From contig WBVU01000003.1 of assembly GCA_009192285.1 (NCBI GenBank), positions 3,503,973 through 3,567,972 on the forward strand: a stretch of 64,000 nt of DNA. Reading direction: 5' to 3'. Each line of letters starts with the position of its first letter. The first letter of the stretch is position 1. Positions 1 to 64,000 of the stretch are shown piece after piece. The position numbers were made by a program, and so were the translations under genes. The DNA comes from Morchella semilibera. Taxonomy: Eukaryota > Ascomycota > Pezizomycetes > Pezizales > Morchellaceae. The notes under the pieces are model-generated. The model was not told the origin of the DNA, made no database searches, and worked only from the letters and a program-made list of their open reading frames with translations.

Positions 1-3000
1 GATAGCCAATTTTTCGAGCTTTTACGGTATATCAGAAGAGGGGTGTTCCAGCGGCGGAGTGCTAAAATATGAACCAAAGTTAGCGAAGCGAGATTAGGGG
101 TGCATTTCAATGTCGGGCATGCATATGAGATGGTATTAGGAAAGGTTGATTCGGTATGATCCCAGCCATTTCTGACGTGTGCATACATGTAGATAGAAGT
201 AGGGAATCTATCCGGTTCATATGTAAATGTGTGTGTGTGGGGGGGGGGGGGGAGGGGAATCAATCGATCGTTACTCGGTAAACTAACGTACATGCGTTAT
301 GTATATAATTTGGGGGCCTTCATGTGATTCATGGGAGTTAAAGCGTTATGAAATATGCCTTCTTGCCTTCAGGCTATTAACCCGCGCCCAGGGTATCTTT
401 TATGGAAGCTTCATTAGACCCTGGAAATGAGACAAACGTTCGTGGAAGCGCATTTGGAATCTCCGAGAAGGAAACAGCCGCGGCAACTCTTCCGCTTTGG
501 TCAAGACATTTAAGTCTATAAGGTGGGGGTAAGATCTGCTATTGTTATTGCTATAGCTAAGTACTTGGTAGTTATGCTGTCGATTGGGATGGCAATTTAC
601 CTACTGTATATTATAAAATGCCAAGGCTCCGACTCATCTCTCTGTATGGTAGCTAACCGTGGGGAAGGAGTGCGTTATTATTATTTCATAGGCCAGCAGC
701 TCAGAAGTTGAGACTAGACTCTGATACCGAGTGATATTTCATGCAGGAGCCTCCAGCACAAAAAGTACGTGTGTCGCGGCTATAGACAATTGGAAGATGA
801 GGCTGGGTTTTAGGAAACATGATTTATTTCAATCTATAACCGAGACCCGAGAGATTGAGCGGGTGGTTCTTTTTGTCAGTTTTCTACGATTTGTGATCCT
901 CATAGACAAAGCTACATACTCTCTAGATCTTATCTTCTCATGGCGGCCACCGGTCCGTGTTCAACATTCCTGGTCGCAAGCCAACACCTTGCCCTGGCCA
1001 TGGTATCTCAATCGAGGTCATGATCACTTAAAAACTTGAAGAGGGAAAAGCAGAGAGGTTACTTCAAATTCATGGCGCCAAGATCGTTTCGAAGCGAGCA
1101 GACAAACAAGGTCTATCCCAGAACCTAGCTCCCTTTGTGGATAGATATATGTAGAGTCCGGGCAGACTCAATAATGAGCCTATGACTGATCCTGGTACCA
1201 ACTTTGACGCCGTTATTAGGACCGAAAGCAGTTCATTAGCGACTGTAGCAGTTGTCAAAACACTCGGCTCTGACGCTTCAATGACCTGACTTCTAAAACT
1301 GTAAAATCCCGTCACTCTAATAGTTCCTAGCTGGGAACTGTAACTTTGACCTGGGAAGGATCCCTCGGAGGTTTTCAGGCCGTTCCACCGAACCTTGCCT
1401 CTAGCCCCAACATTCTTCTTGAGATGATTATGAGTAACGAGAGACCGAATATCATAGATCATTTTGGTGTCGGGATCCCGGGAGAGATCCTGTGCCATAA
1501 CTGATGAAGACGTTGAATGATTCCCGTTATAGCTAGGGCTCGATTATATCTAGAAAGTATTGTAAAATATTATAGGCAAGGAACGTACCGTCATTAATCG
1601 CACTATACTATGAAACTCTTACTGAGCTACACACATATATTCGAGGGTTAATCCACCACAGGCCAGTAGTCAATGATCATGATTCATGTTTTATCACTCG
1701 CCAGAATTCAAATAACCTGGCGGTGAAACGGCGATCGCCACAGAGATGTACACGTGGGCAATTTTTCGATTACCTGCCAGCTGCGATGGACGAATTTCCT
1801 CATCCTTGAAAAATATATACCTTGCAATCTATGTATGTCAATTCTACAGGGCTCCTTTTCGGCTGAATCACATAATCCGCTAGCATTAGTTTTGTAACCA
1901 CCAATACAATAATAAAGAGCTGATTAATCGTAAAAACGCGAGACGGTACATACGGTGTTCCCAGCCAATTTTTCGTATAAAACAGAAAATACTTTCATTT
2001 GCTTACCGAAGCCGTTTTCGGCTTGTAGTTACACCTGTGCAAATCTCGACCAGGTCTCCGAGACCGGTCCCCCGCGTGCCTAGGATACCCCCGCTCACTG
2101 AACCACCCCTCAATTTGTTTCCGAGTGACCCCGATATCCCGCCTTGGGGGACCAAACATAATGGCAAATATCGTTCTTATTGGCTCTAGTATTATACGAT
2201 CTTCCCCCACCCCCCACCCCCCACCCCGGGCGCCCGTTATCTTAAATTTGTTTGCTTCGGAGTGTGGTGGGTACCTAGCCCAATGAGTCGATTTGATTTA
2301 AAACGGGTCATGGCCCCGGAGAGCTAAAGATGCCCAAAGCTCACAAAACATTTGCCTTCAAAGGCACCACCCGCCTCACACGGCAGGGCGGAATACCGAT
2401 ATCTAAGCAGATAGGGCCTTCTTTTTCGACCCCATGGTGTCGGCAACGTTAGAGATTGCCTCATTTTGCCTTGTTTGAAAAACAAAAAAATATCTGAGGT
2501 GGATCGCCTAGCAAAAAGGTCTCGGCACATGTTTTGCGATATTAACTGATGTAGGAACGTATTGTAGTTTGCATCAGGGACTAGGGGAAGTGTTTCTCCC
2601 ATACGCATATGCGTTGGGGGTTTTGAAATTGCCCCTTGGGTGGGCGTTATAGCTAATTATAGCAAACGGAGCACCTGGTCTGCTGAAAACTAGTTATGCG
2701 CGGAGACGAGAAGGACGAATCATAATCTAAACCTACTATTTAAGAGAATCTTTAAAACTGCTATCTGTAGCTCACCGGACTGCTCGGTGGTACGGAGGCA
2801 GAATGTGGGACGTACATTATTTGAAACAAGTGCCACAGACTAACTGGTAGCTCTAATCACAAATCACGAGCGTCTATGAGCTTAGAAGATATTTAGTAGA
2901 CCGGTTAGGAGTTTCCTACTCCTACAAGGGCTCGAAACGCGGCTGTTTATTACATAGGTTGTGATATGACTTGAAGTAATCCTATTTATATGTGACCTAG

Positions 3001-4735
3001 ATAGCTAGAAGTATCGATTAACCTAGGCCTAGAATAATTAGCAAAAGCCTCGCATGAAGTATATATGACAAAGCAAAGGGGATAGCTACAACATAGGCTC
3101 AGTGACTAGAGCGAAAGTTTCGCGGGGTGAGTGCGCCCGCTGGCGGTTTCATAATTATAAGTGTAAAGATTCGAGATAGCGTTATTTTGGTTTCAGTTGC
3201 TTCACCAGATCTCACTCAGGTTCCCAAGTACACTACACCACTGGGAGGGTAGAAAGGTGAACCAACCTAGAAAATTGGATTCTAAAATTCAGGAAAGAAA
3301 GTCTCTAGAGCGGATTAGCAGATTACATCATATGAGGGAAACAAGATGGTCTAGTAGTGAAATGTCGCCAAGCCTGAGTGAGCGAACCATAACCTATGAT
3401 CGCACTTTGTCCGAACCTTGAACTGGTTAACAGTCACAAACAATGAATTGTGCTAACAAATATTCGTAAAGGCCAGGGAAAACGTTTGCTGACCGCACTC
3501 GTACCTCGATATCGTGTCTGAGACAAGGTCTGGGCTTTGACCCAGATTCACCGCTTAACAAATAGGCTTCTTCCACCATCAATTGTAGATTTAGTAGGAT
3601 GGGGATCAGCGGTTACTCACTAATTAGTTATCATGATCAGTTTGTTGTAGTATGATGTGGGTGTATAACTACATGTAAAGGAACTTTACTTCCGCAGGCG
3701 ACATAGTGGGGTGGGAAGCCCTTACTAATTTAACAACTATCTGATAAGGCCATCAGCTATATGATGTATAGCTGTCTCTTAGGAGATATAGTCGTAAAGT
3801 TTAGGGGTGACCGACAAGAGGCGGGGGGAGCAACAGAGTGTATTTTCGTGTATAGGTGCATCGACGGTACGGTTTCAGCGTGAGAAGTACATGTATGTAT
3901 GCAGCCACCAACGAAGATGGGAAAGCGGGTCACTCTCCCTGATACGGCGCCTTTAAAGCTGGCCAAAGTTACCCGCCGGTGCCATACATTGCGCAATCGC
4001 ATCTTGAAATTAAGCCAGCAGCTGTAGCAAATACAGAAATCATTGTATAACTCCCCACCCCCCCTCAAGCCTCATTTCATATGCATATATGGGGCCCAAG
4101 AATGTCAGCCAATTCATACGGTCAGCGGCTGACCTTCGGAGTTACATTCAGACAGCTCATCATATACACCGGCCGTATACTACAATCTCTTACCTACGGC
4201 CACAAAGATGTGAGAATGAAGGGGAGGGGGGAGAGTCCGAACGAAGAGGGGATTAAGCTATTAAATTCCACCCATTGAGGTCCACACGGGAGCCTTTTAG
4301 TTTCGATAAAGAAGAAGTTTGACCTACCTCTGTGTGATTCCAGACTAGGGCGAGCTCGAGGATATGTGTATTTTTACTTTGTTTATTTTCGATTGTTCAT
4401 GGACTACATTTAGTACGCAATGGCACCATGTTTGTTTGAAAAGGCTATCGTACGCATTCATAACCCCTCTTTGGATATTCAGCTACTGCGCAGGCTAAAG
4501 AGGGAGAAAAAAACAAAAAAGAAAAGGAACAAAGGGAGAAACAAGTTCCACAGGTCAATGATAGCTGGGCCCGTGTGCCAAGAAAACGAGACTTTTCATC
4601 TACCTCATACCAGCAAAAAGAACCAATCACTCAAGCAAGAGTAACTGCTTAGTATACTCATCTCAACTCATACAAGGCTTCCCTACCATAAATCTCAACT
4701 CCCGAGAAAGCAGAATTTCACCCCCAGATGCTAAA
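1..4735. other. gene-free stretch, left end of window
   Basis: I see no credible gene here. Open frames are short, lack family resemblance and lie on both strands without splice-linked continuation. The stretch holds a TG run followed by 14 G at 239-252, C/A-rich homopolymers near 2205-2225, and three copies of the palindrome TACATGTA (184, 3670, 3888). The purine-rich block at 4499-4545 gives open frames on both strands but is low complexity rather than coding. The last 100 bases are probably the 3' untranslated region of the ERD2-like gene on the minus strand. Confidence 0.6.
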
Positions 4736-6011: not shown

Positions 6012-6503
6012 GTAGAAAATAGAGAGTATTTACCAAGTGTCAAAACCGACAATTCACACTTCGCCACATCGAAAAGTGGTTGCCGAAACCGTCAATTCTG
6101 ACCAATTTCCCAAGTAGGAAACGCCTGGGGATGTTTACAATACCACGTGTAGTTTATATCCTGCCTACGTATTTCACAGTAAGTGTGAAGAACTACATGT
6201 ATATATCTACTAGTTAATTGGGTTACTGGGAACTGCTGATTTTGCCTCCGGAACCGTTATTTTTGAATTGTCAATTGTCGGATTTGACACTTAATAAATA
6301 GCCTCTAATCCGCAGGTAAACAGTTCTTCACGCTTACTGTGAAATACCCTGGCAGGATATGGGCTGCACACAGATGGTAAACATCTCTGGGCGTATCATA
6401 CATCCCTACTTCAGAAAATTGACGGTTTCGGCAACCACTTTTTAATGTGGCGAAGTGTAAATTGTCGGTTTTGACACTGGGTCAATACTCTCTATTATCT
6501 ACA
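6012..6503. mobile_element. foldback (long inverted repeat) MITE-like element
   Basis: Two arms of about 180 bases, 6012-6193 and 6319-6503, are reverse complements with scattered substitutions and small indels. The outer ends begin near AATAGAGAGTATT on each arm. The best-matched blocks are AGTGTCAAAACCGACAATT and GTGGTTGCCGAAACCGTCAA. The 125-base centre carries no open frame. It is non-autonomous because no transposase frame is present. The structure is seen directly; the mobile origin is inferred. The exact ends and any target-site duplication cannot be fixed by eye. Confidence 0.75.
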
Positions 6504-9500
6504 CTGTAAATGTACCTAAATAGGTGTAATTATGAACTTGTTTTTATTTTCCTTGAAACTTTTTCTAGAGAGCCAGAAAGGAAGATGGTTGACGTTGAGT
6601 GTTTGACAGAAGGGTACGTAAGCCTGAAACGCACGGTTATAAATACATGTACATATATGTAAGTAAGTACATGTACATAAGAGTACATGTAACCAACCCC
6701 ACGAATTACTAGGGTCGGGAGCTCATCTAGATGTCATCTCCACAATACAATATGTAGTATATCGTCTTTGGTGGTTCTAGCTAGAAAGTACTACTTAAAG
6801 CGCTGCTACATCATCTCTCACCCAAAGCTCCGTAACAACATCTCTCTTGAAATCAAATCAACACGTAATTAAAGCATACAGTACGTTACGTACACGTAGC
6901 ACCCCAATTGCGCCAGAAATCACTAGCAGTAGATTTATGGTTTAATACAGTGCTACATGCTACAACACTGCAAAAGACATCACAGTTAATCGGTATGTGC
7001 ATAGACCTCTCGCCCAGCTTCATCAGTACTGACCATCTTTCGTCTCCCATGGAAGGTTTGATTCTACTAGTTCCACATCAGGATTATCCAACGCTCGAAT
7101 GCACATAGCGTTATATTATAGCTCTTAGAGATTACTTCAAGTTGTATTCTCTAGCGTCTCGATATATTAAGTTAAGGAATTCACTATTATAAGTGAAGCC
7201 TCCGCAACATCGTCCTTATATTAAACATTCCGATTCAAGCTGTGTCTAAGACCAGTATCAAACCTAGGTATTTATGTCACTTCGATCGTAAAGGCCATAA
7301 CAACTGACAATAGATCTAGGAATCGCAATTATTACCTACCGACTACAGCCACTCGCAATCTAAGTGGGTACGGATGTGCGCCCTCCCCCCCCCCCCGCGC
7401 CCCGCGCCCCGCGCGTCGAGATCAAGGATAATTATACCGCTAGACTCAAGAGACTAAGGTTCAGCTAGAAGCGCAGTATCGATCCCACAAATAAGTGACA
7501 AAGCGCACATGGACCAGACAAAAAAGGGGGGATAGATCGAGGCAGCTATCCTTCGCTGAAACAGACGCGCTACTCTGACCCTGTCGTGCGCATGCGACAA
7601 TATTCACTCATACAAATCGTCTACAATCGAGCTAGATAGAATCATAAGGAAGAAAAAGGTTTATACAAAAGGGGTGCACTGATGCATGCAAATGGTGACC
7701 ACGACTGTATCCGAGTGCTGTCCTGTGATTCACGCTGGAACTTCCCGTGCGGTTGAGAATCAGGTCAAAGCTACAAGCAAATAATTCTGGTGCAAGGCGC
7801 TTACAAAAGACTGAATAGCCCTACAGGTTGTGCGTCAAGGGAGAATATATATCTAGCTTGGCAAGAATCATTTTCTTCAGGGTATCAATATGCAGGTGTT
7901 TTTGGAAAGCCAAACATTGTAATGCGTATTTCAAACCGACCTGGAGCGCTAATGATCATTTGAGGAGTCCGAAGAGAAACCTCGAACCCCATGTGTAACA
8001 TTGCCAGCCAGCCAGCTAACTGGGTGAAGTATCGTGGCCATAAGGCTTATAACCGCAACGATGCATTTACAGGACTTTCCAAAGCCATGAAGGTTGTCAT
8101 CAAGGTGATCCCACATTTTCGGGTCAGTGCATCGGATGTACGATAAGGGACTATCATACCGAAACTCGAGTAAAGAGGCATTTGTAACCCGCGAAGTGTT
8201 CATACTCTGCGGGTAGCAGGTAAGTATTACGGTCGAAGCTGGGCGAGAAAGAAAGAAAGAAAAACAAAACCAATCACCACATACAGATAACTACCTTCAA
8301 GGGTTTCCGTGTTTTGCGAATCCCTGCATAATTACCGACAACTCCCCCAGTAACTACATACATTCGCCGGTACAGAAGTAATTTCTACGACCATACCGTA
8401 TTCAGCGCCCAATGTTTTGAATACCTTTTCCCGGATATATTGCGGATACGAGGGTATTGAAATAAACTAGTGGAGCGTGCGGACTTCCGCGTGAGTATAA
8501 TTGATGGTTCGATATACTACTTGGGCTAGAGCTCTAGAGCTCATGTGCCGTTACGGCCGAGACAAATTAAGGATACCTGGAAGCATGATCGGGGGTGGAG
8601 TAGGTAATAATATATGACTTGGGGAATTCAAGAGCTTCTTGGTAAGACATAACTAGCGCAGTATAACCCCCTTCCCCTCTTCAAAGAATGATGAAGAAAT
8701 TACAGGAGTTCCTAATTCACGAGAATAAAAGCCGCGGGTATGTAGTAAATAGTTGTAACACTGCCCGCAGTTCAAGCGACTACTTTAGACCCCAATGTAG
8801 TGAACTGGGCTGAAACAAGAGAGTTGACGGGTTTTGCAAATCCTTATTATCGGGTGAGTTTTTCTTCTTAGGGCGGGATGACAATTTGGAATTTTTGTTG
8901 AGAAATAACTCTATTCAATATATGTGTGTGAAGGTAGCTATTTGTTCCGCATACCATCGATCCAGGAGAGAGGAGGCAGAACCAGAGGTAGAGGGCTCAC
9001 CTCGGAAAATTGCAAGGTATTAACGGCACACCGAAGATTGTCCGGCCCGGGGTTGATACGATGCTTTGCTGCTGGAGGAACTTTGGAGGCGTGCAAGGAT
9101 CGCAGATTCAAGAATTGCACGGCACATCGACATCCATAAAATCGCAAAGATCAGCGAGACTGGAGCAGTAATAGAGGTTGCACCAAACATGTTTCACCTA
9201 TAGGAGCATATATTTTTGCCGGTTAAATGATATATGTTTTGTTTTGCTACCGGCAGGGTTTTGAAATTTGTACTCAAAGACAAAAATTTGGCATCTTCTC
9301 TGGGAAACACAGAGCTTGGCCCCTTCCCTAGATCAAGGAAGCTGCCGTTTCTCGCTTCAGTCAATCTCTGCCAGCGGCAGAGCAGTGTGATCCTCGGAAT
9401 TAATACCAATAGGCAAGGGATTTGTGGCCATACGTCGTCCATCTGGTAGATCTGCACCAAATCACCTCCATATCAGCACTTTCACGACTACCTGGCTGTT

Positions 9501-12701: not shown

Positions 12702-13397
12702 TTAAGAATATCTTACCAACATTCTGCATTGTGCCACAATATCTCTCTTTTCCTCCTCTTTTGATGTTCGTTCCCACACCTCCCGCTCTATAATTTCTGT
12801 TTGGCCAGAGCCTGTATCCCTAACAACGACTTGACCGCTGTAGTGCTGAGAGTTCATGAACCCTAGAAGTTCACGAAACAGGTGCTCCCCAGCAGGTGTT
12901 ACGCAAAGTGCTGCAACAGAGTCATCATCACAAACACGGTTCCACGATGTTGATTTATACAAGTACTTACCTGAATAACCAACCACGCCCTTGCACCCTT
13001 CTGCTATCATTTTTGCCACAGAACCCTTCAGATCCTCCCATACCCATGCCCCGAAACTGCCCCAACCCTGTCTCCAAGCCTCGAAGCGTTCGATATGCCA
13101 TACATGTAGCCCTACCGTCTCACCTATTATCCCGAGGTGCGCTGGGGTGATATCCCATTCTTTCAGCTCACCTCTGATCAATTCTTCCCAGTGGCCTGAA
13201 ATGACAGGTAGAATTATGCATATTCCGCATGGCGATGTATTTTCGGACGTGGAGAGGTACTTAAAAGAGAGGGATGGCACTGCGGAGGTCCAAGAGGAGA
13301 GGGTAGAGAGGGTCAAGGGTGAGGGGTAAAGAGAAGCATCAGCATCTAGGAGCTGAGGAAGATCGGCGGGGCTTATGGGTACTAAATACGGCGCCAT
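12702..13397 (-). CDS. GNAT-like N-acetyltransferase fold protein
   Basis: Exons 13397-12971 and 12910-12702 give 211 residues. The 60-nt intron has a textbook GTAAGTACTTG donor and TTGCAG acceptor. Left unspliced it adds 20 residues without a stop. After splicing the C-terminal half reads VTPAGEHLFRELLGF, which resembles the GNAT motif following the acetyl-CoA loop (TPEG then an LGF helix). The N-terminus starts MAPYLVPISPADLPQLLDAD, typical of a GNAT opening strand and helix. Known role of the superfamily: acetyl transfer from acetyl-CoA to an amine. The substrate cannot be inferred. The assignment is by weak motif only. No neighbour is functionally linked, and the nearest gene is over 4 kb away and divergent. 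Confidence 0.65.
   Translation of the reverse strand: MAPYLVPISPADLPQLLDADASLYPSPLTLSTLSSWTSAVPSLSFKYLSTSENTSPCGICIILPVISGHWEELIRGELKEWDITPAHLGIIGETVGLHVWHIERFEAWRQGWGSFGAWVWEDLKGSVAKMIAEGCKGVVGYSGKYLYKSTSWNRVCDDDSVAALCVTPAGEHLFRELLGFMNSQHYSGQVVVRDTGSGQTEIIEREVWERTSKEEEKRDIVAQCRMLVRYS
12911..12970 (-). other. 60-nt in-frame intron of the GNAT-like gene
   Basis: GTAAGTACTT donor and TCTGTTGCAG acceptor. The length is a multiple of three and contains no stop, so both spliced and retained forms stay open. Removing it improves the match to the GNAT motif. Confidence 0.8.
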
Positions 13398-16300
13398 TGC
13401 TTTGGCATTCGACTAGGTGGGTTGGAGGTCTTAGGATTGAAGTTGCAGAGTCCGTAACAAATATTAGAAGTATGGGAGGACGGGCGTGCTAGTGGTAAAT
13501 CTAGCCTATAACGTGCTAATATTTCAAATTGACCCATAAAAAATGATTGAATGTTTCACGGCCTTGCTCCGCGCAGTTTTTTTTTTGTTCACTGAGGTTG
13601 CGTGATCATAAATTCCCCGGTTGTTCTCAGATCTGCACCTGTATCACTCAGTCTTGAATAGTGCGTATCAAATTGCGACGCTAACCCACATGCTTTGGAG
13701 TAATTCTCCGAGAAATCGCATGTACCTATATAGCTATGCCGAAAAAACTTACCGCCTGATTCTCACCAGCTAGTAAGGCGTGTCAATGCAGGTTGATTAG
13801 CGCAGAGCGCGAAAGACTAGATACATGGAGGTACATGTACATGTAGGTACATAAATCTGGACTCGGAGTCTAGAGTAAGGTTCATCCCGCCGTCAGTACT
13901 CTACAGTTTACTGAAGTTTAAGAACTTAAGCTCGAGGTTGAGATGCTGTCTTGTAGCCTGATTCCCTACTCTGGCAATTTATCTCATCCCTGCTCTCCAG
14001 TGTCTTAGTGCTAACAATTTATCAATGATGGAGCTTTAATCCAGGAAAGGAAACCAAAAACCACACCAGTGCACCCACTAGAATGTGTAGAAACACGTGT
14101 TTAGAATGCGTAGGGCTGCATTGTCGGGGAATATAGGTACATAAATGTACTTGTAGGGCTTGTGATAGCATACGTGTAGTACTACCTAGATTACCCCGCT
14201 AGTATTGTTCTTTTAAGCAGTACCTACTTACCTACTTCAAATTCATGTCAAAAGCCTCCTGTTTGGTCTTTACACCATTTCTCTGAGGTTTCCAATTACA
14301 CCAAAAGGTGGTTACTGCCGGCGCAGGTATCATTACCTGGGGGACCTTCACAGCTAGATTTAATACTATATTCTACAACTTACATTTATATTCAGGCTGT
14401 TTGGATTGGTTACAGCAAAAATGTCAGTATAACCTATCCTAGCATGTGCCTCTCAAGCGGCCCCTAATCAATTATTTGGGCCATTCACAGCTACCTCCAA
14501 ATCGACCCCCACAATCGAGCTCATAATTTTCGGACGGGCCAGTACCGTTGGCGGTCCCTGGAGCCGCGACAGAATCTATCCTGGCCTCACCGCCCAACAG
14601 CCCTTCGGGATACTTGAACCCCCTCACCTTCGCCTTGATCCCTAGAGGGTGTGACATCAGACTCTTCTACCCCTGTGCAACTGTATGGAAGGCTACATGC
14701 GAAAGTTCAAGTTGCTTTATCGTATTAGATTTTTACATGAGATTCAGGCAATTGACAGGGTCCAGGAAGGTTCTGGATGGAGTGTAGAGTATCAAAGTCT
14801 TGATAGGCGGTCAAGTTGTTGCGATAGCTGATTCTAGCAACGGGGACAACTTCTCAGCCTTTTGTTCCAAATATAGAGGATAATGGCCTAAAGTTCTACT
14901 CCAGAACCTGGGGCCTCAACAGGGGCGCCTCGCTGCACCTGAGGTAAAGTGTCCTTCTCGCCCCCCCCCCAAAAAAAAAAGTCTATTGGTGATTTGTGTG
15001 GCAACCGCACCTAAAGTGTCGATAGACTTTATTTTGGCGAGTATTATATGTGGGGTAAGTCAGCACTGAATGCAGTGAGCACTTGCAATTGTGCTGGCAA
15101 AGTTGGGAAAGCAAGTCTATTGGGTTACTAGAAAAGAGGAGTCCGGCGCTGAGGCCCAGCTGGCCAGCCACTTGCTTGTGCAGAATGCAGTGCATCATAA
15201 TGGCATCCTAATGTATTCGATCGTGAGAGATAGTGGTATTGTGGATAATGGCTGCAGCGGGTGGGTGTACTGGGACTAGTATCATCAATGCAATAAAGGC
15301 AATGGGGTACGGGGATAGACAAAACATGGGCACATTGAGACCAGATATTTTGGATCGAAGGAATTTAACTTGTATATCTGAGTTGCTTTTGATAAATTAG
15401 GAGAATAAGGCTGACGTGATGATACCAGTGTTCTGGGAGAATACACATTCCTGCGTGGCAACAAAACCACCACGGCGAAAAAGTGGGCAGGTTAGAGTCA
15501 CTACCAGATGTCAAAGGTGACATTGACAGACAGCACCGACGCCCAGATGAATACGGTTATCTGTGCTACAGGTTGGGATATAATTGTAGTCTAGGATCCC
15601 TCCGACCCCGAATCTACGCCCAGGGATATCTACAGGTGGCGTCTACCGCCCACCTTCTATACTCTAAGCTTACTACCCCAAAGAGCTCAGTGCAAAATGG
15701 AGGGGTTTGGGAAGCACAGTTCAAGGTTATAGTGAGCTCTTCCCACGACTGGCATCACCGCCACCCTCTTATAGGGCCCCAACTATACCATATAACCAAT
15801 TTCGCCTTTACAACCGCATCCCCCAAAGGTCGCTTTATGAAAGTAACGACAACCATTTATTCTTGTCGGTTCTGTCGGGACGGGGTATAGAGCCATTGTA
15901 CCTGAGTGTATGGGTGGTAGGGCGGTAACTTACAGACGATGGGGGAGATTCTGTACATACTGTAGGATTTCTTTCCCGTAAGCCAAATCAGCCTTGATAT
16001 TCAACGATTATGATGAGATCCAATCATATAACGAAAGTTGCTAATGTAACGTAATTGATCGATGTTATGTTAACTGAATATAGAAAGTAACAGAGGATAG
16101 TCCACGCTGTTTGAGCGGGTTACAATTGCCTGTTTCTGTCTTTAGAATCCAGGTATATACATATAAATATATATATTATAGCAATTGCAGTAAGTTTTTC
16201 CCAAAACGAAACGTGGACCCGAGCTCGAGAGGGAGATCCAGCTTGCGTATCTGATAAATAACGGCCGCAATTTAGTAAGCCTTGGACATAGAGACTCGAG

Positions 16301-17795
16301 GGGAAAATAAACTGGTGATTCACCATCGTAGGTCTACCATATTTCAGATGTTTCACACCCCGCACTTTGAATTACTGTCACTCACTGGGTATTGATGGAC
16401 ACTGGGTGTTGACGGACAGGGCTTTTTGGCGAATAAGAACAAAATAACCGGACTTAGCTACTTCTCTTTTGTAGGATCCGTCAACACCCAGTATCCATCA
16501 TCACCCCGTGAACGACAGTACTCCCTGTTTAGACGGAGTATCCCACTGCGGTTTCCAGGCTTACCTAATTATAACTACATACATGTAGTTAGTGTTAGGA
16601 GAATGTAAGAGAAAGATTCTGATCAGAAGAGTTGAAGCGGAAAGACAAGCCTTGAATGAATGTCTCTAGCCTATGACTGATTCAAGTATCTGTTTCAATT
16701 ATCGATCTACCAATATACTCATATGTAGAGAGTATCTATTATAAACTCTTGAAACTAGTAGAAGTTTAATCAGTATTTAATTAGCTAAGGCTGGCTGATT
16801 TCGTAGCAAAAGATTGTCTGTGTATTTACGTACGTATTTTGAGGCGGTGATGGGTTATGTGGAATGGGGTTTCGAGTGATATGTCTTTGTGGTTCTGATA
16901 TGATAATGCCTGTCAATTAGTTTAACTACCAGGAGCCTAGTGTGCTGCAATTCGGACCAAGTTCAAAAAAGCTTGTTGCAAGACTTCAGGGGACCAGGAT
17001 GAGTTGGTTTGAAATCAGTTGGGTTCGTGTACCGCCATTCGAGTCTAACCCACACAGGCGTTAACTACATGTAGTATGTAACTACTTCATGTATCTAACT
17101 AGCTCAGGGCCAAATATGAGCGATGAACTGCTTCAGCAATCCCATGCTGGAGAGGGATAGGCTGCATATATTACTCTATTACTTACTCAGTCAGGGACTC
17201 AGCACAATTACTGAGCTAGTTTCTCGGCCATCAATCGTGAACCTCCCCCACCCCCCCCCCCCCTCTCTCTCCTCCTTCCCTCTCTGCTGTGCGTCGCTGT
17301 GCGTCTTATGCCCGTTACAGCAGCACGTATGACCCGCGGGGTGTGTCTATCAGCTACCTGTACTTATTGTTATGTACGGAACGGATTGCTATGTCAATAG
17401 ATTTTTATTTTATTTCGATATCGTGGAGCCTTTTACCTGCGCACATTGAACTTGATTCTAAGTGGGTCTCTGAGGCTCTGCGTGGATCAATATTAGCGTG
17501 GTCGCGGCGGCTGATCTCTCGAAAACGCTCCAACCGATTCCAACGTCAAACATCTTCATGTCAAAAACACCTTGTCATCCGTCATCATCTTCACACCCAA
17601 CCTTCTTCCACTATAACTCTCTTTCTCTCGCTCGCTCATTCACCTTTTTACATTCACCGTTCAATACTATACAGGTTTACGTCCATACTCTCATTAAAAG
17701 TAGCAACAACAACCACTACCCTCTCGTCCTCGCCGTCTCATCATCCTCTCCTTCTTCTTCTTTTATCGACGTAGCCTTGCTTTAAAGCAGCCATT
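13398..17795. other. gene-free stretch between divergent genes
   Basis: This is the shared upstream region of the GNAT-like gene (-) and the Zn2Cys6 gene (+). I see no supported gene. It holds two overlapping TACATGTA copies (13832, 13838), two more at 16580 and 17066, a C10/A10 block near 14961-14980, and a TA-flanked MITE at 16373-16520. The last 300 bases are pyrimidine-rich (TTC/CTC runs at 17590-17765), as is common in fungal promoters and 5' leaders. Confidence 0.6.
16373..16520. mobile_element. 148-bp terminal-inverted-repeat MITE flanked by TA
   Basis: The left end TACTGTCACTCACTGGGT and the right end, read in reverse complement as TACTGTCGTTCACGGGGT, continue to match for about 44 bases up to GTGTTGACGGA. 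The central 50 or so bases are unique. The outer TA on each side suggests a TA target duplication, and the termini CTGTC/GACAG are compatible with Tc1/mariner-type MITEs. Inside the left arm two near-identical 17-base units with CACTGGGT lie in tandem. There is no coding capacity. Confidence 0.75.
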
Positions 17796-20366: not shown

Positions 20367-21353
20367 GAGTTCGCTTTTCAGGCAGCGCAAAAAAAGGGAA
20401 AAATGGGGTAGTTATTATTGGTTATTAAAAATTTTTGCAAAAAATGGTTCAAGTACTAGAGGTCGTGAGAGGGTGCCAGTCATATCCTCCAGGGGGGGGT
20501 TTTTTTTTAAAGAAAAAAAAAAAAATTAACGGGTATTCGTGGTAAAAAAAAAAAAAAAAGAAAAAAAAACCCCCATTTCGGAAGGATCGAAAACTTTATT
20601 GTACATACCCAATCCGATGTACAAAAAAAAAGCAAAGAAAGAAACCTGTAACTGGAGGTTTTAGTTTATTGTGGGCGTCATCTCCCTTTTTTTTTGGGGG
20701 GGGGGTAACGATATGTGTTGACGACAAAGACAGAAAGGCCGGGGGAAGAGAGGGGGAGGGAGGGGGAGAAGAAGGGGGGGGGGTGGGAGATTGGGGGGGG
20801 GTGACGAAGATTAATCCGCAGATGGATCATCAGCTCAGTGGTATAGGAATCTTGGGGGGGGGGAAAGGGGACATGATGTAGTTACGAGTTACGGCATTAG
20901 CGGGCGCTCTGTTTTTTTTTTTTTTTTTTTGATATTTACACTATGTACCTACATAGTATCTAAGCATCTCTATAGCACATATATAGAGCCCGTTTCAGGC
21001 AGGCCGGGGGGGGGGGGAAAAGAAGGCGTTTTATCGAACCCCACATATACATAGATAACAGTTGGCGGTGGTGGTGGGTGGTGGTGGTGCGCGCATGTGA
21101 CCGAGTGATAGGAGCTGACCGAGACCGAGACCATCACGGGGGAAAACCTATCAGTAACTGCCTGTATATACGCCCTTTTTCCTTTAAGTAACGCTGCCCT
21201 GCCCTGCCCTGCCCGCACTAGCGCGCCTCGCAAAGCTAATACTCCAGACAGATCATACATGCGCGCCGACTAGCTATACATATATAAACTACATGTACCA
21301 GGGTGGTGCGTAGCGTGGTGATATACACCCCAGCCTAGGTTAATATAAAAAAA

Positions 21354-21361
<8 letters not shown>

Positions 21362-21395
<34 letters not shown>
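21362..21395. repeat. (GA)n microsatellite
   Basis: About 16 uninterrupted GA units, directly preceded by an A-run. Confidence 0.9.
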
Positions 21396-21398
<3 letters not shown>

Positions 21399-21845
21399 CT
21401 CTGCATATAATAAACGCCCCTCTTCACTGGGGGGGGGGGGGGGAGGGGATAAAGAAACCTAAACTTCTAAAAAAAAAAGGGGGGGGGGGGGCAATGATGG
21501 ATAAGGCTCCAAACTCCATGATACGGTACGATACATACATACATGTAGGTAAAAACAACCTCTTTCTTTTTTTAGATATATGTTTATACGTATAACCCAT
21601 CCATGAACTCCTCGCGGGCCGGGGGGGAAGAGAGATATAAAAAAAAAAAAAGGTTGTTTTTTCCACGGGGGTGAGGTCATAAAAAGAAATAAAAAAATAA
21701 AAAAATAAAAACGAGAAGAAGAAGAAGAGAAAGAAGAAGAAGGAAGAAGAAAACAAATTTATTTCAACTACCTGGGAAAGAAAACACAAAAAGAGAGAGA
21801 AAGAGAGAGAGAGAAAAGGAGGGGAATCTGCCCCTGATGTCCCTG

Positions 21846-24739: not shown

Positions 24740-26339
24740 GTTCCCTGGTTAATTCCCGGTGGTGTATCTGATAGCCTAGGATCGGTGGAGTTTTCGTAGT
24801 AGTAGCAGTATTAGTAGTAGTAGTAGTAGTGCGATTGATTGATTAGATTAGGTCGTGGGTGCCGCATAGAATAGAGTGGTTGTCGGGTGGGTGGGGGAGG
24901 GTTGTGCGAGCTTTATACATATCAGCATGCAGATTCGCCTTGTTTGGCTTGGCGGAGTTTGGGGGGGGGGGGACATACATGTAGGCAGCAATGCCGCGCA
25001 GGGAACGCGTTGTGCCCTATGGTTTGAGAGCGTTATATTGGTAACTGCTTGACTTACAACTACATCATGTAGGCGAGATGGCGTTATGTCAAGATGTAGT
25101 TTCGGGTCGAGCAAACACTGACTGGTGGGCCCGGGGGAGAGGGGGGGGGGTGGTTTGTGCGTTAACGACGTTCGGACCTCTAGGCCTGCCAGTGTTTTAC
25201 GATATACATGCAGATACTTCTTCTCTTGTATGTGCATGTTTGTTTGTTTGTACTGCATTGCAATACTCCTGACAACCAAAAATCAAAAGCGATGACAAAG
25301 CCCAGTACAGTGTCAATGTCTCTGCCGGCGCCAATTAATACCCCTATCCTGTCCTATCCTAAATATAACTGCCCTGATCTATCTGATCTACATTGATCTG
25401 ATCTCAGCCATGGGGGGATAACTTGGGCTGAGGGCTGAGATGAGACATTATTAGGGATTTAGGCTCTTTGCACCTACATCGTACTCTACAAAAAAAAAAA
25501 GGGACCCATCCAGTCGGGATCCACGGCCTCATCATCCATCCATACCTGCATTGCATTTTGTCCAACTCTAAGCTGGCGCATACACACCGTATGCCCTCCT
25601 CTCCAAACGCGACCACCACCAGCGCCAACACCAACATATGTGGGGTAAAAACCCCCCACGTAGGTAGGGGGCGCGCGGCTACATATGATGCCGCCCTCAT
25701 GAACAGAGCAGGCCGCCCACCAAGGCGGTTACCTCGATGGGGGGGGCGGGTGGAATGTCCGAGTGATGGACTGTGATTACTGGTTTTGTCCCCCGCCAAG
25801 GAAGTGTTGGTGGTGGGCCGGAGGCATCCCGGCCGGCCCGGCGCGGATTAATTCAGGTGTTCCGTCGTTGTGGTCCTGCCCCTCCCCCCCCCGGCCCGTC
25901 GAGACTGCAATGTACTTACTAGTAAGTACATATATGTACATGTGCTTTCATTGCATGCATATGGGGGTTGTCAGCGGGCTCCAGTACTCTAATGTCGTAT
26001 CCGCGCGCGTGGTGCTTCGGCGCACCCCCGCTGTGAAACGAAACCTCAATCAGTATGGAAGAGGGTGGGTGGGTGAGATCACTAGGACTACGGGATATTT
26101 TACATGTATGTATGCAGTGACGAGGGGTTCTTAAGCGATTGAGGGGCGAGGAAACACAGGTAAGATCCCCTAGTAAGTGGGTAAGTATGCGCTACTGTGG
26201 AGTTTGGTAGCATCGCAGTTCCGGGTAAGTACTGTGATAGGTTTGTTTCCTCCCCTCCCCTTGTTTTTGATTTTTTAATTTTGCCTCTGGCGCGGGCCGT
26301 CCTTGGCCACGGACGGGCGGAGCGGGGCGGGGGATACTC

Positions 26340-26418
26340 AGCTGTACCAATACCGCACTGCTAGTATAGTGACGGGAATACAGTAGTGATCTCACCAACC
26401 ACCCCTTTTGTGCTGTAT
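26340..26418. repeat. dispersed repeat, copy B
   Basis: This is related to 10851-10938. Both contain CCAATACCGCACTGCTAG-like and GTGACGGGAATAC-like segments, then GTAGTGATC, an ACCCCTTTT-like segment and a closing TGCTGTA or TACTGTA. Confidence 0.55.
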
Positions 26419-41226: not shown

Positions 41227-41232
41227 CTAAAC
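41194..41232. repeat. (CTAAA)n microsatellite
   Basis: About seven uninterrupted five-base units, TAAACTAAACTAAACTAAAC onward. Confidence 0.85.
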
Positions 41233-42709: not shown

Positions 42710-44224
42710 CATGTGGTTAGTGAAATTCTATGGTACTTGTTGGTGCTGCCCGATCTCACATGAGGGGTGTCAGCATCGACGGCCTACGGGATACTGAGAA
42801 GATCAGCATTAACAGCTTACGGGATAAAATGTTTATCGTTTGGGAATTCTCAGGGCCAGATTAGCTCCATCTCTTTTTTCCCCCTCAAATACTTAATGCA
42901 AACCAGGCCTGAAAGAGTAAAGAGGGCTACCACCACCATTAGGGTTCGGGCTTAAAAGAGCAAAGATGGTTGTCACCACCATGCGTTGAGAGGCTGTGGC
43001 TTAGTGGTCGTGGTGGAGAGGTTCCGCAGCCGCGCATGGGGGTCTGCCCCTGGTGGACTAACTTTTTTTTTTCTCCCCTAAGGGCCGACATAATAGGACT
43101 ACCGGGTCACGCAAGTCCTATAGTACTGTCCTTTGTAGCATGTTCTGTCCCAGTCGACACACCAGGGGATCTTATTGGCCGATAGGTTTTCTAGTTGGCT
43201 ATCCACAGGGAGAGAGAGAGAGAGAGGTGGAGCCATGCGCGATCAAAACAGTGTAATACACTACCTCCCAACACCAGGCTGTATCACGACTACCCTCTTC
43301 TTCAAGAACCTAGCTAGCAGGGGCTTACAGATTAGATTATTAAAACCTCACCCCCCCCCCCCCGGATGAACAAACACCTCCGCACATCGCAGTATTGGCA
43401 CCATCTACTCTTGGCGCTTCCCCCACCAGTCTAGAGACGCAAGGGCATGTTTCTCTACACCGAGTGAGAATCTGTGACCAACACCACTACAGGTGTAGAA
43501 TGCGCCAATTCAATTGGGGTGGTGACTGCACCCCCCGCGCCCCAGACCCCCAACCCCGCTAGATACATATAGATACAGGTATACGAGGGTTCCAACACGT
43601 GCAATACTGGCAGGGCTTGCATATAAGCCGTGTACGTATTATGCCCTGACCTATACTGGCCCTTCTAATTCAATGCCGAGGCGATTCTACCCAGCGGAAG
43701 ACATTTGGATCTGTGTTCTGGGCAGCGGTTTATGTAACCTTAAACATGAAGTAGCCGCGCCAGAATACCACAGCAATTGGAATAGGGGGAGGGGGGCGAT
43801 CTTTCGTGGGTATCGACAAGCCTAAAACCCGGTAGAGGCAGAGAACGGGCGACCTGGCCCCAAACCCGTACATGTATTGATCCGTGTAATCGCGGTCCCA
43901 CTCGGTACGCTGCACAGTCAACACTTGTACTACTATTCCTGGGTCCCCTATTCCTTTGATATTGGTATGCGTCTCTATAGAAAATATGCAGTTAAAAAAA
44001 ATATACAAGCTACGCCCCCCCCCCCCTCGGCCCTTTCCCTAAACCCCACTTTACATCCGTCCAAACGCACGGGATTAAAAACAATACTCGTCCTAATAAT
44101 TTTAACAAAGAAAAAAATGGGAACAAAAAGAAAAAAAGGGAACTCGTTGGTACATTATATAATTATCTCATCTATCGTATCACCCCATCCCATGCCACCC
44201 CATCTAAGACTACTTTAACCTAAT

Positions 44225-46331: not shown

Positions 46332-47887
46332 GGCAGTGATGAGCGTGTGGTGGTCATGAAGGGGGAGGAGAGGAGAGACGGGGGAGGAGGAGGAATAGGT
46401 AGAGGGAGAAGGAGGAGGGGGAAGGGAGGAGGAGGATGAGGAAGATGATCCTCTACTCAGTCAGAGTGAGAATCAGACGGAAGGGCGTGGGGGCGCAGTA
46501 AAATGGAGGGCGGCGGCGGCGACGGCGCCTCAGTGGGACAGAGATAAAAAAGCTAAGATGAGGAGGGGGAATCTCAGACACTGACTGGTGCACGAAGAAA
46601 AAAGAAAGTAGAGTCTCTAATAGTAAAGAGCTAGAGAGAGAGAGGCATGAGTACCTACAGGTACAGTAGTTTATTTAGTCTAACTACATGCATGTAGTGA
46701 GAGCTTCTTCCGGCTTGTAATCACTACCGAGAGTGACATGGAGTAAGTGTAAATAGAGAGAGTAACTCCACTCACTCACTCCACTCTGCTCCACTTGGAT
46801 ACATCATGTAGTCTGATGTAAAGGACTGTCCACAAGGTGTCCGTGACCACAAAAAAGCCATACCAAACCATAAGTACATACACACGCATCGGATGACGGT
46901 GGTGGTGGTGGGGAACTTTGTTGTTTACATACTTGCAGCCCCTGGGCCCTGGCCATCAGTTAGTCCCTGCACCACAACTACATTTAGGTACCATGTAACA
47001 ACCTACCTAGCTGAGTCTGGCTCAGCAGCAGACCCCTCACTACTCACTCTCCCACCCCCGCATTTGCGCATTCCCTCGCATGGACATTCAGATCAGAGGA
47101 ACGTGAGGCGGGGGGGGGAGAGATGAGAAGGGTAGAGCAGACCGTAGGTTACATACAATCCTAGGATAGGAGGAGGATGGTGATAGGATGTGAGCTATCA
47201 GTTATCTATGTGGTTGTGGTGGTTTGTGCGTGTGATGTGATGTGATCGATGGAGAGAAAAGCGTTGAGGGCGGGGGAGGGGAAAGACCTTACGTTTTGAG
47301 AGAGAGGTGGCCACATCTGTTCAGTCTGACTGACTGGTTTGGTTGGTTGGTCCGGTTGGATCAGCAGCTTCAGCTTGAGGATTCAGATTGAGGAACACAC
47401 CACTGAGGAACCCCATATTTGTTTATATGAAGTTGTATTCAAGTAAATAAGTAGTGGCGACATAAATACTTGTTTCGACCTTTGCCTTTGCTTTCACTGG
47501 GCCCATTACATGTAATCTACTCTACCACTCTCTAGATCATCATCAGAGACAACAGTATTGAAAAGAACCCTAACCCAGCTTCAACAGCCCGTTTCCTTAC
47601 CGTACCGTTTGCTACAATGGTACTATATAAATGCACCTACCTAATAAACATTAGAGTAGTAGGCACAAACTTCCATCCGGCCCCAGCCATCCCCTGCACA
47701 CATCATGCACAACACCCATAACCCCGTATAATTAAATATATCCATACCGGGCACTTGGGTGCCAATGAGTCATTAAGCTCTGTCTTCAACTATTGTCATA
47801 TCTATATATCTTCAGTATCTCTCTTTCTTCACTACCTCCACCCCAATTATTACCCCCCAAAAATCGATCATTACCACTCAAAAAAAA
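46332..47887. other. shared upstream region of divergent genes
   Basis: Upstream DNA between the membrane protein gene (-) and the GST-like gene (+). It holds GGAGGA-type purine tracts at 46361-46445, GAGAGA at 46633-46642, GGTGGT repeats at 46896-46908, a G9 run at 47110 and TACATGTA at 47507. TATATATC lies about 80 bases before the GST start. No gene is supported. Confidence 0.55.
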
Positions 47888-48977: not shown

Positions 48978-50684
48978 AGTCGAGTAAAGGTGGATGGTGA
49001 TGACTATATATATATATTCTACATATATATATATTGGTCGAGCTTGCACTGCCAACTGTGCTGTGGCTAACTACACGCAGATATGTATACTACATAGAGA
49101 GATTGTAGTCTGGCGGTGAGATATATGGAGGGTGTGTATGGGTACGTTAACCCTTCATATAGCGTCTCCAATATAGAGGCGACTCTCCCTGTGTGTTATG
49201 GGGTGCTTGTTCTGTCCCGTTGGTGAATTTCTAGTTGACGGATGAGATGCTATGTTCAGTTGATTTCACCAGCTAACTGATCTTCCCCAATTGGCACCCA
49301 CTATGAGTATAGGCGCCTAGTAGAAGTATATGTATTCCGGGCCTTGAGCTTCGTAGGTATATATTTGACCCCTGTGGTGAAGGTAAACCCCCTATAAGGG
49401 TGCCAGCCTTCGGCCCCGATGCATCTTTATAGAAAGAGTTGTATGCAAAGAAATTTAGAGTAGCAGTAGAGCAGTGGTGTGATCCATCATCATATATGCT
49501 AGCCCTTCTTCATTGGCTGGAGAGTGTGTCCATATGTTCTTGCAAGCAACCATGTTTCCTACAAAAGTATATTGAGCTGATAGAACTCCACTGGTATATA
49601 GTGGGGGAGGGGCATTCAAGTTGATTCGACTATGCACCTCTTCGCACCTGATTGTTTGCGTTAAGGACGTCATCCAGGGGCAATAGATCCACGTGTTTGG
49701 GTGTGTACCTTGCAGAAGTAAGGCTTTTTTTCAGGGGAGATGGGCCTCTAATTTTGGGAGCTCTTATCGATCATCTATATAGATGGGCTTGCTCTCGCCA
49801 CCCGGCATGGATGAGAACTGCAGCTGGGAAGTTTGTTGAGTAGATTCACATGTCGAGCAGCTTCGTAGTCTTGGCGGTTTTTTGTGTGTAATATTAGTCG
49901 GGTTCAAAAACGCGAGTAGTAAACCTTGAGCCTCATGGCAGGCACTCTGTGTGTTGTTCGGGTGGACAAGTTTAATACCCGAAGATTTAAACACCCGTTA
50001 TTTTTCTAAAAAAACTGATCCCCTTCCAGAATAACCAAAGAAATGTTGATGAGATAAGCCACACCCACCCGCACCACTGGAACCGAGTGTCACGATAATA
50101 TTATCGCTAAGGCTATAATAAGCCACCAACCACTGTGACATATCACGATAACTCCTCTTCTGGGGAGATCATAGCTACATGTCGATACCCCATAATGGTC
50201 TCTTAGTGCGTTTCTTTTGTACGTGCTTCGACCGAGTTACTCGCATATTAAAGGACTTTATTCCCTTGTTCGGGGTAAGATGGCACAGTAAGTAGGGTAT
50301 TAACCACACAAGCTAAAGAGCTTCCTTCCCAAGTTCAGAGCATTGCCTCCAACATTCCCGTCACGAAATACCGACACCGGCCCCTCGACGCCTCCCTCTT
50401 ATCAAATCCCAGAACTCTGGAGTACCTCCTCTCTATAATTACATGTATTAATTCCTAAAAATAAAAGCGCATGCTTGGCACACGTCCCCACGGTGAAACG
50501 TGAAACAAGCAAAAAATACCATACCAAACCCTAACCCCCACAGCCTCTTCCCCCCCAACCCAAAATAGTGACTATAAACCTTCCAACAACTCCAGCTAGC
50601 TACATAGCTAGCTACATAGACACACACAAAACAGAAAAGAAAGAATCGATACTTCACTCACCCCCAATCTAATCATCAGCAATA
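48978..50684. other. intergenic spacer between two plus-strand genes
   Basis: It contains the GST 3' end with an imperfect TATATA hairpin region at 49004-49034, TACATGTA at 50440 and the promoter of the Hsp70-like gene. GCTAGCTACATAGCTAGCTACATAG at about 50595 is a short tandem repeat. No gene is supported. Confidence 0.55.
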
Positions 50685-53167: not shown

Positions 53168-54984
53168 TTTATTTGGTCTTGATGGGCCTTCTAATGATAC
53201 CTTTATTGTTTTTGTTTTTCTTTCATATTTTCATCCTGTTTTTGCGGCGTATTTCTTGTAAATATCTTCTGAAAACTCGGGAGTTTGCTATATTGGAGAG
53301 AATAAGTCGGAATTAAATGATATATTGATATTCTGATGCCCAAGTCTATATATGTAGGGGTGTGTTAGTGCTTTTACCCTAAAGAATTTTGGTATTTACA
53401 GACCTAACGGATCGGGTAAGGCTTACTTAAGGAGGCCTACTAATGTGGCTCGATCTAGGTTAGCTCGCGGGTATCAATTGAATCTTAGATTGCCCAGATG
53501 GGCGGGTACCTGCTCGAGGTTATCTACACGCAGCTATGGCTGGTGACAGCTAGAAGGGTGCATGTAGGTACATGTACTCTCACCCCAACACAAGAGACGG
53601 GCTGTTAGGTAGCTTTAGGAACAGTAGGACGCAATCCCTGTGGCAAAAAGGCTCCAACTATCACTCTCCCCCTCTCTATGACTGAGCAGGCTGTCATGTT
53701 GTGAATCTATCTATTTATGGGTGTGAATCAACCTAGGTGCAGATAACTTCACAAGGAGGAGGGGGGGGAAGATTATAGCGTTTAGAGATGGCTCCATTGT
53801 GTTGGTTGGTTGGTAGATCAACTGTTGTATCATGGGCGTTTCTACGATTCACGTCGTCCTTGTAAACAACAAACATCCGAGTGGGATCATGAAATATCAC
53901 TCACAATCTCGCTGGGCCAATAGCGGGACTGATTGATGCATGCATGCATGCAGCGGCCAATAGCAAAAGGTTTCCCAGCGAGAGTCCCTCTATATAAGCG
54001 ACGTGTTACTGCAGAACTACGCACGCTGGCCTAAGCACGAGCGAGGCATTCCCTCCGTGCGGCCAATGAGGGGGGGGAGGGAGGGAGGGAGTGATTACCG
54101 CTCGAATAGTGTGTTCACCAGCCATGGTACCGTACCTATGCCCCGCCGGCCATCTCCAAACCAATCAAGCTCTGTTGGGGGGGGGGTCTCCATTACTTGA
54201 TGGGTTAGAGCTCCCAACCGTCAATTGATCCCACTATTGATACTTCAAACTTGACAGCTCGCCTAGCTCAGCGGCCAAAGTCGATTAGGTTGATATAATT
54301 GGTATGACGAAATAAACTGCATCTGTGATACTTCTGGCACGCCCCACAGCACACTGCCACTGAAATTCGGAATTGATGTCTCCAGTTTCTGTTTGGAATT
54401 GACAGTTTAAGAGCACTCTCTATCAATCGATAAGTTAATCAACAGCTGTAGCGGGTCATGGAATATCACTCGTGGGATAAGAGTAGCAGGGGTGTTTACC
54501 CGCCCCCGCACGAAGCGGAACCTTGCGTGTCAACGACGTCATATTATCAGCACCCTGCCCCACGGCGGCGGGCATGACATGACACCGGGGGGTACCTGTC
54601 GGTCGGTCGGAGGTGAGCTGTTTTCTCGGCTCGCCTAAGCGATCGGGCGAATTCCATCCCTAGTGGTTGATCTGTATGTCGAAGCGAATAGCGGGGCAAC
54701 ACTGCGACCGACGGATGGCGATATCCGGCGAGATGACGACACTGTGGACCATTGGCTCCCAAACCACCGCCTAGAATGAACGTGGATCATACGCAATCAC
54801 TCGTCATTGACCTTACGCGCATTTTTAGGTGTTTGGTGATTGAATGGAGACTTTCTGCTTTGCATCATTTAGGCTACCTCCATATATATACAGTGAAATC
54901 CATTTCCAGACCCCCCAAGACAGTCGCCCAGATCAAGTAATGGCCTAGAATACAGGACTATGTAGATAAATACAAACCCCACAC
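53168..54984. other. spacer between convergent genes
   Basis: 3' ends of the Hsp70-like (+) and DUF1772 (-) genes. It has TACATGTA at 53569, GGGAGG purine runs at 54070-54092, CATG repeats at 53937-53952 and a G11 run at 54177-54187. Short frames on both strands lack motifs. No gene is supported. Confidence 0.55.
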
Positions 54985-62621: not shown

Positions 62622-64000
62622 ACTTGGGATTTATGCGACAGAAGAACCTAAGTTAGTAAAAATAGATGTAAGCTAGAGGATCCGTGAATAGTGTATGTAA
62701 GAGGGAAAATTAAAATTAAAATTAATTTCTTTTTTTTAAAAAAAAAACTTAAATAAAGTGGCAGGGTATGGAGATAGATACAAATGTAGAGAAAGGTATC
62801 GCTATAATTTGATATTGTCTAGAATTGTATCAAAGCAATTGCGAATAAATGTGAATATGTTTAATGGGGAAAGAAACAATTTGAGGGGACTTCAAGAAAA
62901 TGGGATAGCAGGTGTATAAGTGAAGAGTAGGATATATGTAGAAAGAACGACGGAATGCGGTTGGTTGCGTGCAAACCGAGCTTCCGAAGCGCGTCTCACA
63001 TGACATCAAGCGACGACTGCTGCTCCAAGAAGAGCGAGATTGCAAATAACCAGAATAAACAGAATGAAGGGGAATTAAATGGAGAAAATCAGAGGAATTT
63101 AAATAGAATGTGTAAAAGAAAAACCACATTTACATACCTTTTTGTGGCGACAGTCAATAAGGAACAAGGCCGGGTATTCACACTTTCAGCGCCGCCTCAA
63201 GGTTATCAAAAGAGTATGTTCAAGAAGCAGCAAAGAGCTGCCAAGTCGTGCGCTAAATAAAATTAGAAATCCTGGTGTAAACTTAATGTAGGTGGAAGCA
63301 GAAAAAAATGAAGGAAGAGACAAGATGGAGACCGGGAGAAGCTTGTTTGATCAAGAGGTAGATAAACTCGCGTAACATGGAGTTCCATATAAATAGGACT
63401 GGGGTACATGTAACTGCAAGATTGATGGAAGTGTACAAAGTAAAACCAACTCACCTCAAACTTTGTAAATACTCGCTGAGATTCTTGGGTTGAACTTGGT
63501 CTGGATTGCGCCACAGATAAACTGGGTTAACACAGTGCTCTGTTGGCAGTAAAGTTTGGAGGGGTGATGAGATCTGATAAATATCCAAAGAAAAACTAGG
63601 TGCACGGTGTGGAAGAGAGGGGTGCTAAGTTGTCCAAGCGATAATTGGAAGCCAGCAGTGCAAGACCAGATACAAGGGGGGTTATGAAGAGTGAAAAAAG
63701 ATTCGAACTTTGAAACGCGATCAAAAGGATGGGGACATCTCGGAGGAAGCAAAATACAGGTTAAGGGATGCTGAGTCAATGTAATTGAGCGCACCAAATC
63801 TTGCACATGTATATGAGGGAAATAGCTCGTCGCAAGAAGAGGGCTGGTGAAGAAAGAAGAGCAACTGCAAAAAGCCAACAAGAAAATAAATCTTACTTAC
63901 GTCCTGAACAAGCCAGGGAAAAATAGATCAGTTTGAGATTACAGAATGGTGCCCGATGAAAGGATATCAAGGTGGGTTTTAAAAGCCCATGGCTGTCATC
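62622..64000 (-). other. probable spliced 5' leader of the giant gene and upstream DNA
   Basis: No coding region is evident, but on the minus strand there are strong donors at 63900 (GTAAGTAAG), 63454 (GTGAGTTGG) and 63137 (GTATGTAAA). Acceptors lie at about 63844 (TTCACCAG), 63253 (TTATTTAG) and 62648, where TTTTACTAACTTAG forms an ideal branch point and acceptor 27 bases before the ATG at 62621. The three short stretches between these sites contain stops in all frames, so they would be untranslated leader exons. TACATGTA occurs at 63405. Confidence 0.4.

Follow-up and report, generated by a model that had tools for sequence, protein, structure and literature searches.

Among short palindromes that dominate a single genome, HIP1 of cyanobacteria is the familiar case, an octamer hugely over-represented there and common in coding DNA. 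Tc1/mariner elements, for their part, carry CA and TG as terminal dinucleotides. Transposases of the IS630/Tc1 type are described as inserting almost only at TA and cutting two nucleotides inside the 5' ends of the transposon (PMC2170065), and taCATGta is cited, with credit to Eide and Anderson (1988), as a rare excision footprint of Tc1 in Caenorhabditis elegans (PMC3520976). The same palindrome has been listed as motif-1 upstream of 12,070 Phytophthora genes (PMC3520976) and as the high-confidence motif M93 of P. infestans (PMC3597505). Both sources interpret it as a transcription-factor site that correlates with expression; an origin as a footprint is considered in this literature and set aside because of the conservation and abundance of the motif. 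Here, we describe this octamer, TACATGTA, in a morel, starting from a window of 64,000 nucleotides (the whole stretch analyzed; Morchella semilibera, assembly GCA_009192285.1, contig WBVU01000003.1, positions 3,503,973 to 3,567,972) and extending to the complete genome. Most of its copies probably mark places in non-coding DNA where DNA transposons of the Tc1/mariner (IS630) type once inserted and left a scar.

The morel octamer shares with the C. elegans Tc1 footprint its identical 8 base pairs (bp), with 6 bp added at a TA. Its palindrome is also that of the Phytophthora motif, which occurs in great numbers upstream of genes in a eukaryote not related to morels. As with HIP1, one genome holds a vast excess of one palindromic octamer, but the morel octamer, unlike HIP1, is non-coding, and an insertion origin is shown in one case. 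In the literature searched, neither an excess of TACATGTA in a fungus nor HIP1-like fungal octamers were found.

Excess and strictness of the octamer

The window holds 27 copies of TACATGTA, counted as exact octamer matches. The original prediction, made by eye, had listed 26 positions, all of which are exact, and had overlooked a copy at 13101; its expectation of about one copy per window agrees with the 1.17 obtained for independent bases. Markov models of orders 1 to 3 give 0.79, 1.04 and 1.72, and those of orders 4 and 5, which absorb the word itself, give 4.4 and 10.4. By order-2 excess, TACATGTA is the top octamer of the window, below only poly-A and poly-C words. Genome-wide (56,756,124 bases in 23 scaffolds) there are 22,206 copies, compared with 3,723 of the reversed-letter control ATGTACAT, itself a palindrome. 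Extrapolating the order-2 value, about 930 copies would be expected, which corresponds to an excess of roughly 24-fold; the genome-wide count that had been suggested as a check therefore lies far above the Markov expectation rather than near it. A sample of 23 stretches (the window and 22 of 10 kilobases [kb]; 284,000 bases, including approximately 8,650 N) contained 77 copies versus 4.5 expected at order 2, the first rank by excess among the 256 palindromic octamers, followed by TATATATA (68 versus 11.5), ATATATAT (61 versus 13.0), and CGGCGCCG (10 versus 1.4). The excess is thus real and striking, and an origin in base composition or Markov structure is ruled out by the window, genome-wide and sample counts alike. 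Runs of N occupy about 4.5 kb of one 10-kb stretch (L016) and about 4.2 kb of another (L017).

The word is also strict. Of the 26,405 plus-strand occurrences of TACATGT in the genome, 22,206 continue with A, the three last-base variants together reach 8,326 on both strands, and one-step variants are far scarcer than the octamer. The 12-mer ACTACATGTAGT has 442 copies genome-wide, its reversed control 2. The extension to ACTACATGTAG, which had been attributed to several copies, is seen in two window flanks only (17066 and 26748).

Leaving out the duplicate stretches L014 and L017, 73 sites remain in the sample. Non-coding DNA contains 72 of them in 186,308 bases (4.0 expected), and called coding DNA a single one (L008:1262) in 71,697 bases (0.5 expected), which is about chance; the coding calls come from a simple codon model, which is crude and misses exons and untranslated regions.

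A gain of 6 bp at one TA and target-like flanks

In the reading that we favor, an element would enter at a TA and duplicate it, and its excision would leave CA and TG, the dinucleotides at its termini, enclosed by the two TAs, so that TA becomes TA-CA-TG-TA and the site is 6 bp longer. These scars would pile up where 6 bp is harmless, would favor ANN-TA-NNT targets, and would cluster, sometimes nest (as TACATGTACATGTA), and decay through point mutation.

A filled and an empty state of the same site can be compared in a family resembling miniature inverted-repeat transposable elements (MITEs). The element is approximately 330 bp long with inverted ends (TAGAGCGTATTTAC...), has 73 matches genome-wide including its own, and is present in the window at about 6012-6502 as two diverged, oppositely oriented copies. 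These two and 16 fetched copies were read at one internal position. A single TA is found in 15 of the 18, of which 13 read GTAGTTCATATC or GCAGTTCATATC and two are close variants in the window. At this position, the copy L039 (C2:975750-976090) reads GTAGTCCATACATGTATCC, an exact gain of 6 bp, and once these are removed it matches the copy L036 at 98.6% over 72 bp; sequence comparison thus indicates that the TACATGTA of L039 arose when a TA gained exactly 6 bp. Two further copies, L043 and L045, carry other small insertions at the same TA, which is a hot spot for them. Given those insertions, the L039 event could be a matter of luck, but we judge this unlikely because its product is exactly the octamer favored by the genome. 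Another site of the family, the window copy at 6194..6201, aligns without gaps over approximately 36 bp with other MITE copies once 6 bp are taken out.

The flanks of the sites resemble a transposon target preference. With strands pooled, T makes up 61% of the third bases out from the core and A 48% of the fourth, compared with 31% and 30%, respectively, around other non-coding TAs. TA occupies +3/+4 in 50 of 146 half-flanks in the sample, where 10.4 are expected; it lies on the left in 25 sites, on the right in 25 and on both sides in 9 (n = 73), and the two flanks look independent of each other. A weaker TA alternation carries on further outward. The form ANN-core-NNT is found at 26 of 73 sites, compared with 1,263 of 13,202 (9.6%) other non-coding TAs, and at 11 of the 27 sites of the window. 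Genome-wide, 3,317 of the 22,206 copies show the TANN..NNTA form TANNTACATGTANNTA, versus 251 for the reversed control pattern. The target consensus given for Sleeping Beauty is ANNTANNT (PMC2756404, PMC5241402), which agrees with the morel sites in its symmetrical bases at -3/+3 of the TA; unlike it, the morel flanks also favor A at +4 and show the outer alternation.

Variants of the octamer are unevenly distributed. In the non-coding sample DNA, transition variants are in excess (76 versus 31.2 expected) and transversion variants are near expectation (64 versus 60.1), with TAAATGTA as an exception (18 versus 8.6). Half of the transitions are TATATGTA (38 versus 13.7), a count that TA runs may inflate, and the other three classes are each about twofold up (14 versus 7.2, 14 versus 6.1, and 10 versus 4.3). 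This looks like the spectrum expected from copies decaying through ordinary mutation. As to a possible source, the transposase domain PF13358 (DDE_3) has 77 matches in the genome, 57 of them over the cut-off and some in open frames of 366-426 codons; these counts refer to the domain only, with families not sorted. The original prediction offered three explanations, namely protein binding, a replication or chromatin signal, and an insertion or footprint of small elements; the third is the best supported, by the 6-bp pair, the Tc1-like flanks and the transition-biased variants. We infer that the scars come from excision rather than another 6-bp insertion process, that the elements behind them belong to one or a few transposon families, and that end joining by the host retains both dinucleotides.

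Several observations weigh against this reading. There is only one clean filled/empty pair, and it comes from a family with other small indels. In a MAFFT alignment, the copy at 6194 shows no 6-bp gap but substitutions beside a deletion, and its origin is ambiguous. A relative of the coding site L008:1262, a stretch of L020 with 72% identity, is not an empty site. Among Tc1 footprints of C. elegans this octamer is the rare form, whereas in the morel window no octamer apart from homopolymers ranks above it, and a total beyond 20,000 scars is very high. The footprint of Sleeping Beauty differs, being given as TAG(T/A)CTA (PMC2874221). A TA flank is raised in both kinds of variants (30 of 132 for transversions, 41 of 158 for transitions), so the flank alone cannot separate decay from tolerance. 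Effects of gene position, given below, also exist for these sites. No intact CA...TG-ended element tied to the scars was found; a 188-bp MITE-like candidate with Tc1-type ends (L005:2036-2223, TA-CAGTCTCCCTCCGCTATAAC...ACTG-TA) occurs only once in the sequence retrieved and itself lacks ANN/NNT flanks. Finally, TACATA and TATGTA, the 2-bp footprints that are more usual for Tc1, are raised 1.6-fold, compared with 1.9 for TATATA and 1.85 for TAGCTA. Because these shorter footprints show no excess of their own, we regard an excision footprint as the probable, not the proven, way in which TACATGTA works.

The ordinary level of the 2-bp footprints, together with the other small TA-rich insertions at the same MITE position in L043 and L045, would also suit a process that inserts 6 bp without Tc1/mariner excision, for example abortive insertion, templated end joining at TA-rich breaks, or the action of a domesticated nuclease. 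Such a process would have to explain the excess of one exact product, CATG between two TAs, which matches the terminal dinucleotides of the transposons and sits in a Tc1-like target context, and we consider it improbable.

Gene position and the binding-site alternative

The main rival to transposon scars is a site for a homodimeric DNA-binding protein, either a TALE homeodomain with an Iroquois-like preference or a general regulatory or chromatin factor, kept by selection in intergenic DNA. The octamer is a strict palindrome, is non-coding and is clustered: among the first 100 listed sites of scaffold C1, 30 of 99 gaps are below 200 bp, where 8.7 would be expected. It is also cited as the preferred site of Irx homeodomains by the source that calls it a transcription-factor motif in Phytophthora (PMC3520976). 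Overlapping pairs TACATGTACATGTA, present in the window, L002, and L025, may fit nesting of one scar in the newly made TA of another; overlapping protein sites would look alike.

Position relative to genes speaks on both sides, depending on the null. Divergent intergenic DNA holds 19 of the 72 sites versus 9.2 under a whole-sample null (P 0.001), and 11 of 56 site clusters versus 7.1 (P 0.10). A divergent-promoter enrichment, which at first stood at 19 versus 6.7 over all bases, vanished under a same-locus null, with 18.3 expected for the 19 sites and 12.5 for the 11 clusters. Under this same-locus null, site clusters are depleted within 0-300 bp of 5' coding ends (1 versus 5.5, P 0.015). They are more frequent at 300-1500 bp on the 5' side, with 20 of 56 clusters versus 13.3 (P 0.02; crude gene calls), a point in favor of a regulatory site, and number 18 versus 13.8 on the 3' side (P 0.11). 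By these cluster positions, the sites lie between genes, and the sample shows no strong promoter signature.

A protein with the required preference was looked for in the genome. Homeodomain profiles gave one match for PF05920 and five for PF00046, the latter taken at profile level, and a TALE-type helix pattern, which overlooks helices split by introns, gave three (WFINARRR, WFLNTRR(R/S), and WFINVRR(R/S)). The backwards control pattern also gave three, so two of the three TALE-type matches may be due to chance. Iroquois and alpha2 homeodomains have a small residue at position 50; the three helices have I, L, and I there, and no fitting protein of the Irx type was seen by either profile or by the helix pattern. 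For the similar Bcr1 motif of Candida, a literature check returned only a primer match and unrelated papers.

The suggestion of a protein-binding site, also part of the original prediction, is weakened by the same-locus null, by the exact 6-bp addition that produced a site in the MITE copy L039, and by the lack of a fitting homeodomain among the profile and pattern matches. A different protein could still bind TACATGTA, yet we hold selection for a binding site to be an unlikely source of the copies.

Repeat context, window copies and significance

The copies could in principle also stem from one common repeat family, from a microsatellite junction, or from base composition. The flanks of TACATGTA do tend toward alternating TA, TACATACA is moderately enriched in the sample (42 versus 10.9), and other alternating palindromes are three- to fourfold up (ATGTACAT, 16 versus 5.1; CATGCATG, 12 versus 3.65; ACGTACGT, 5 versus 1.4). 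Such microsatellite or general alternating-palindrome effects are too small for the excess: the junction word stands at 77 versus 4.5, well above the repeat unit, and is strict in its last base. In addition, 21 of the 77 flanks of 60 bp have another match inside the sample, of which 8 come from the duplicate pair L013/L014, and most of the others involve TA runs, the MITE, or short local matches. Genome-wide searches covered the DNA around 24 sites (window 6100-6800, 4 sites; window 20900-27500, 7; L011 6500-7560, 2; L006 2000-9700, 11), with only the best 40 candidates scored for the 20 sites outside window 6100-6800, so that weaker repeats could escape there. Within a listed repeat lies a single one of the 24, the copy at 6194. 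A common repeat family, which had been named as the result that would overturn the prediction, was thus not what the searches returned, and this group of explanations is scarcely credible. A quasi-palindrome or hairpin origin was also rejected, as side-to-side complementarity of the flanks is not clearly above expectation at any of 15 positions.

Some repeats lie near sites without containing them. The copy at 26101..26108 is about 20 bp outside a small repeat (window 26127-26331) with eight further matches at 78-93%, and in L011 an octamer lies about 18 bp past the end of a 160-bp inverted-repeat element (7126-7285) with tens of matches that reach 96% identity. The repeat at L006:6487-6796, about 305 bp long, has approximately 30 listed places among the best 40 candidates, with very uneven lengths, which suggests many indels. 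The scaffolds C9 and C10 (L013 and L014) are 100% identical across the 9,842 bp compared, and hence uninformative as allelic filled/empty pairs; C12/C13 and C21/C22 show paired matches at nearly equal coordinates. The three pairs resemble duplicated haplotypes, and the published 56.7 megabases (Mb) may include redundancy.

Within the window, the tight cluster noted earlier consists of three exact copies, at 6644..6651, 6668..6675, and 6684..6691, whose surrounding DNA has no other match in the genome; the first two have TANN..NNTA flanks, as do the copies at 16580..16587, 21540..21547, and 26600..26607. The copy at 3888..3895 has ANN..NNT flanks. The pair at 13832..13839 and 13838..13845 overlaps as TACATGTACATGTA, and its second member may represent a scar that formed within another. 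The copies at 17066..17073 and 26748..26755 extend to ACTACATGTAGT and ACTACATGTAG, respectively, and that at 27129..27136 lies within an alternating TA run. The remaining copies are at 184..191, 3670..3677, 21290..21297, 24976..24983, 31262..31269, 31690..31697, 43869..43876, 47507..47514, 50440..50447, 53569..53576, and 63405..63412, besides two that bear on the earlier statement that all copies but one are intergenic. This statement roughly holds, although the copy at 13101..13108 sits in a 231-residue open reading frame (ORF; 12702-13397) that the coding model did not call. The copy at 33587..33594, previously placed at the very end of a helicase gene, lies outside the helicase-like ORF (33708-34910, minus strand), some 115 bp past its stop. 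Elsewhere in the window, an ORF at 59461-60501 (minus strand) is mostly a tandem amino-acid repeat of the VEEPLVEEPL type, and transfer RNA and Rfam scans (gathering threshold) of the window gave no match.

The genome paper of the yellow morel, Morchella crassipes, reports 23 scaffolds, 56.7 Mb, 11,565 predicted proteins, and 15.34% repeats, with hAT-Ac (182) and CMC-EnSpm (117) as the main classified DNA transposons (PMC7014384). If the copies of TACATGTA are scars of excision, they would densely document cut-and-paste transposition in a genome with few classified DNA transposons, and would offer thousands of natural repair outcomes showing how the host joins Tc1-type breaks. A bolder version, possible but doubtful in our view, is that a single excision system left over 20,000 uniform scars across the non-coding part of the morel genome, through repair that keeps both transposon ends, that the abundant TACATGTA of Phytophthora may be the same scar and its transcription-factor motif transposon debris, and, at the extreme, that the excision is domesticated and programmed. 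The transcription-factor reading of the Phytophthora motif deserves a recheck and, if the scar origin is true, transposon scars, and not binding sites, can lie behind over-represented palindromes that motif discovery picks out near genes.

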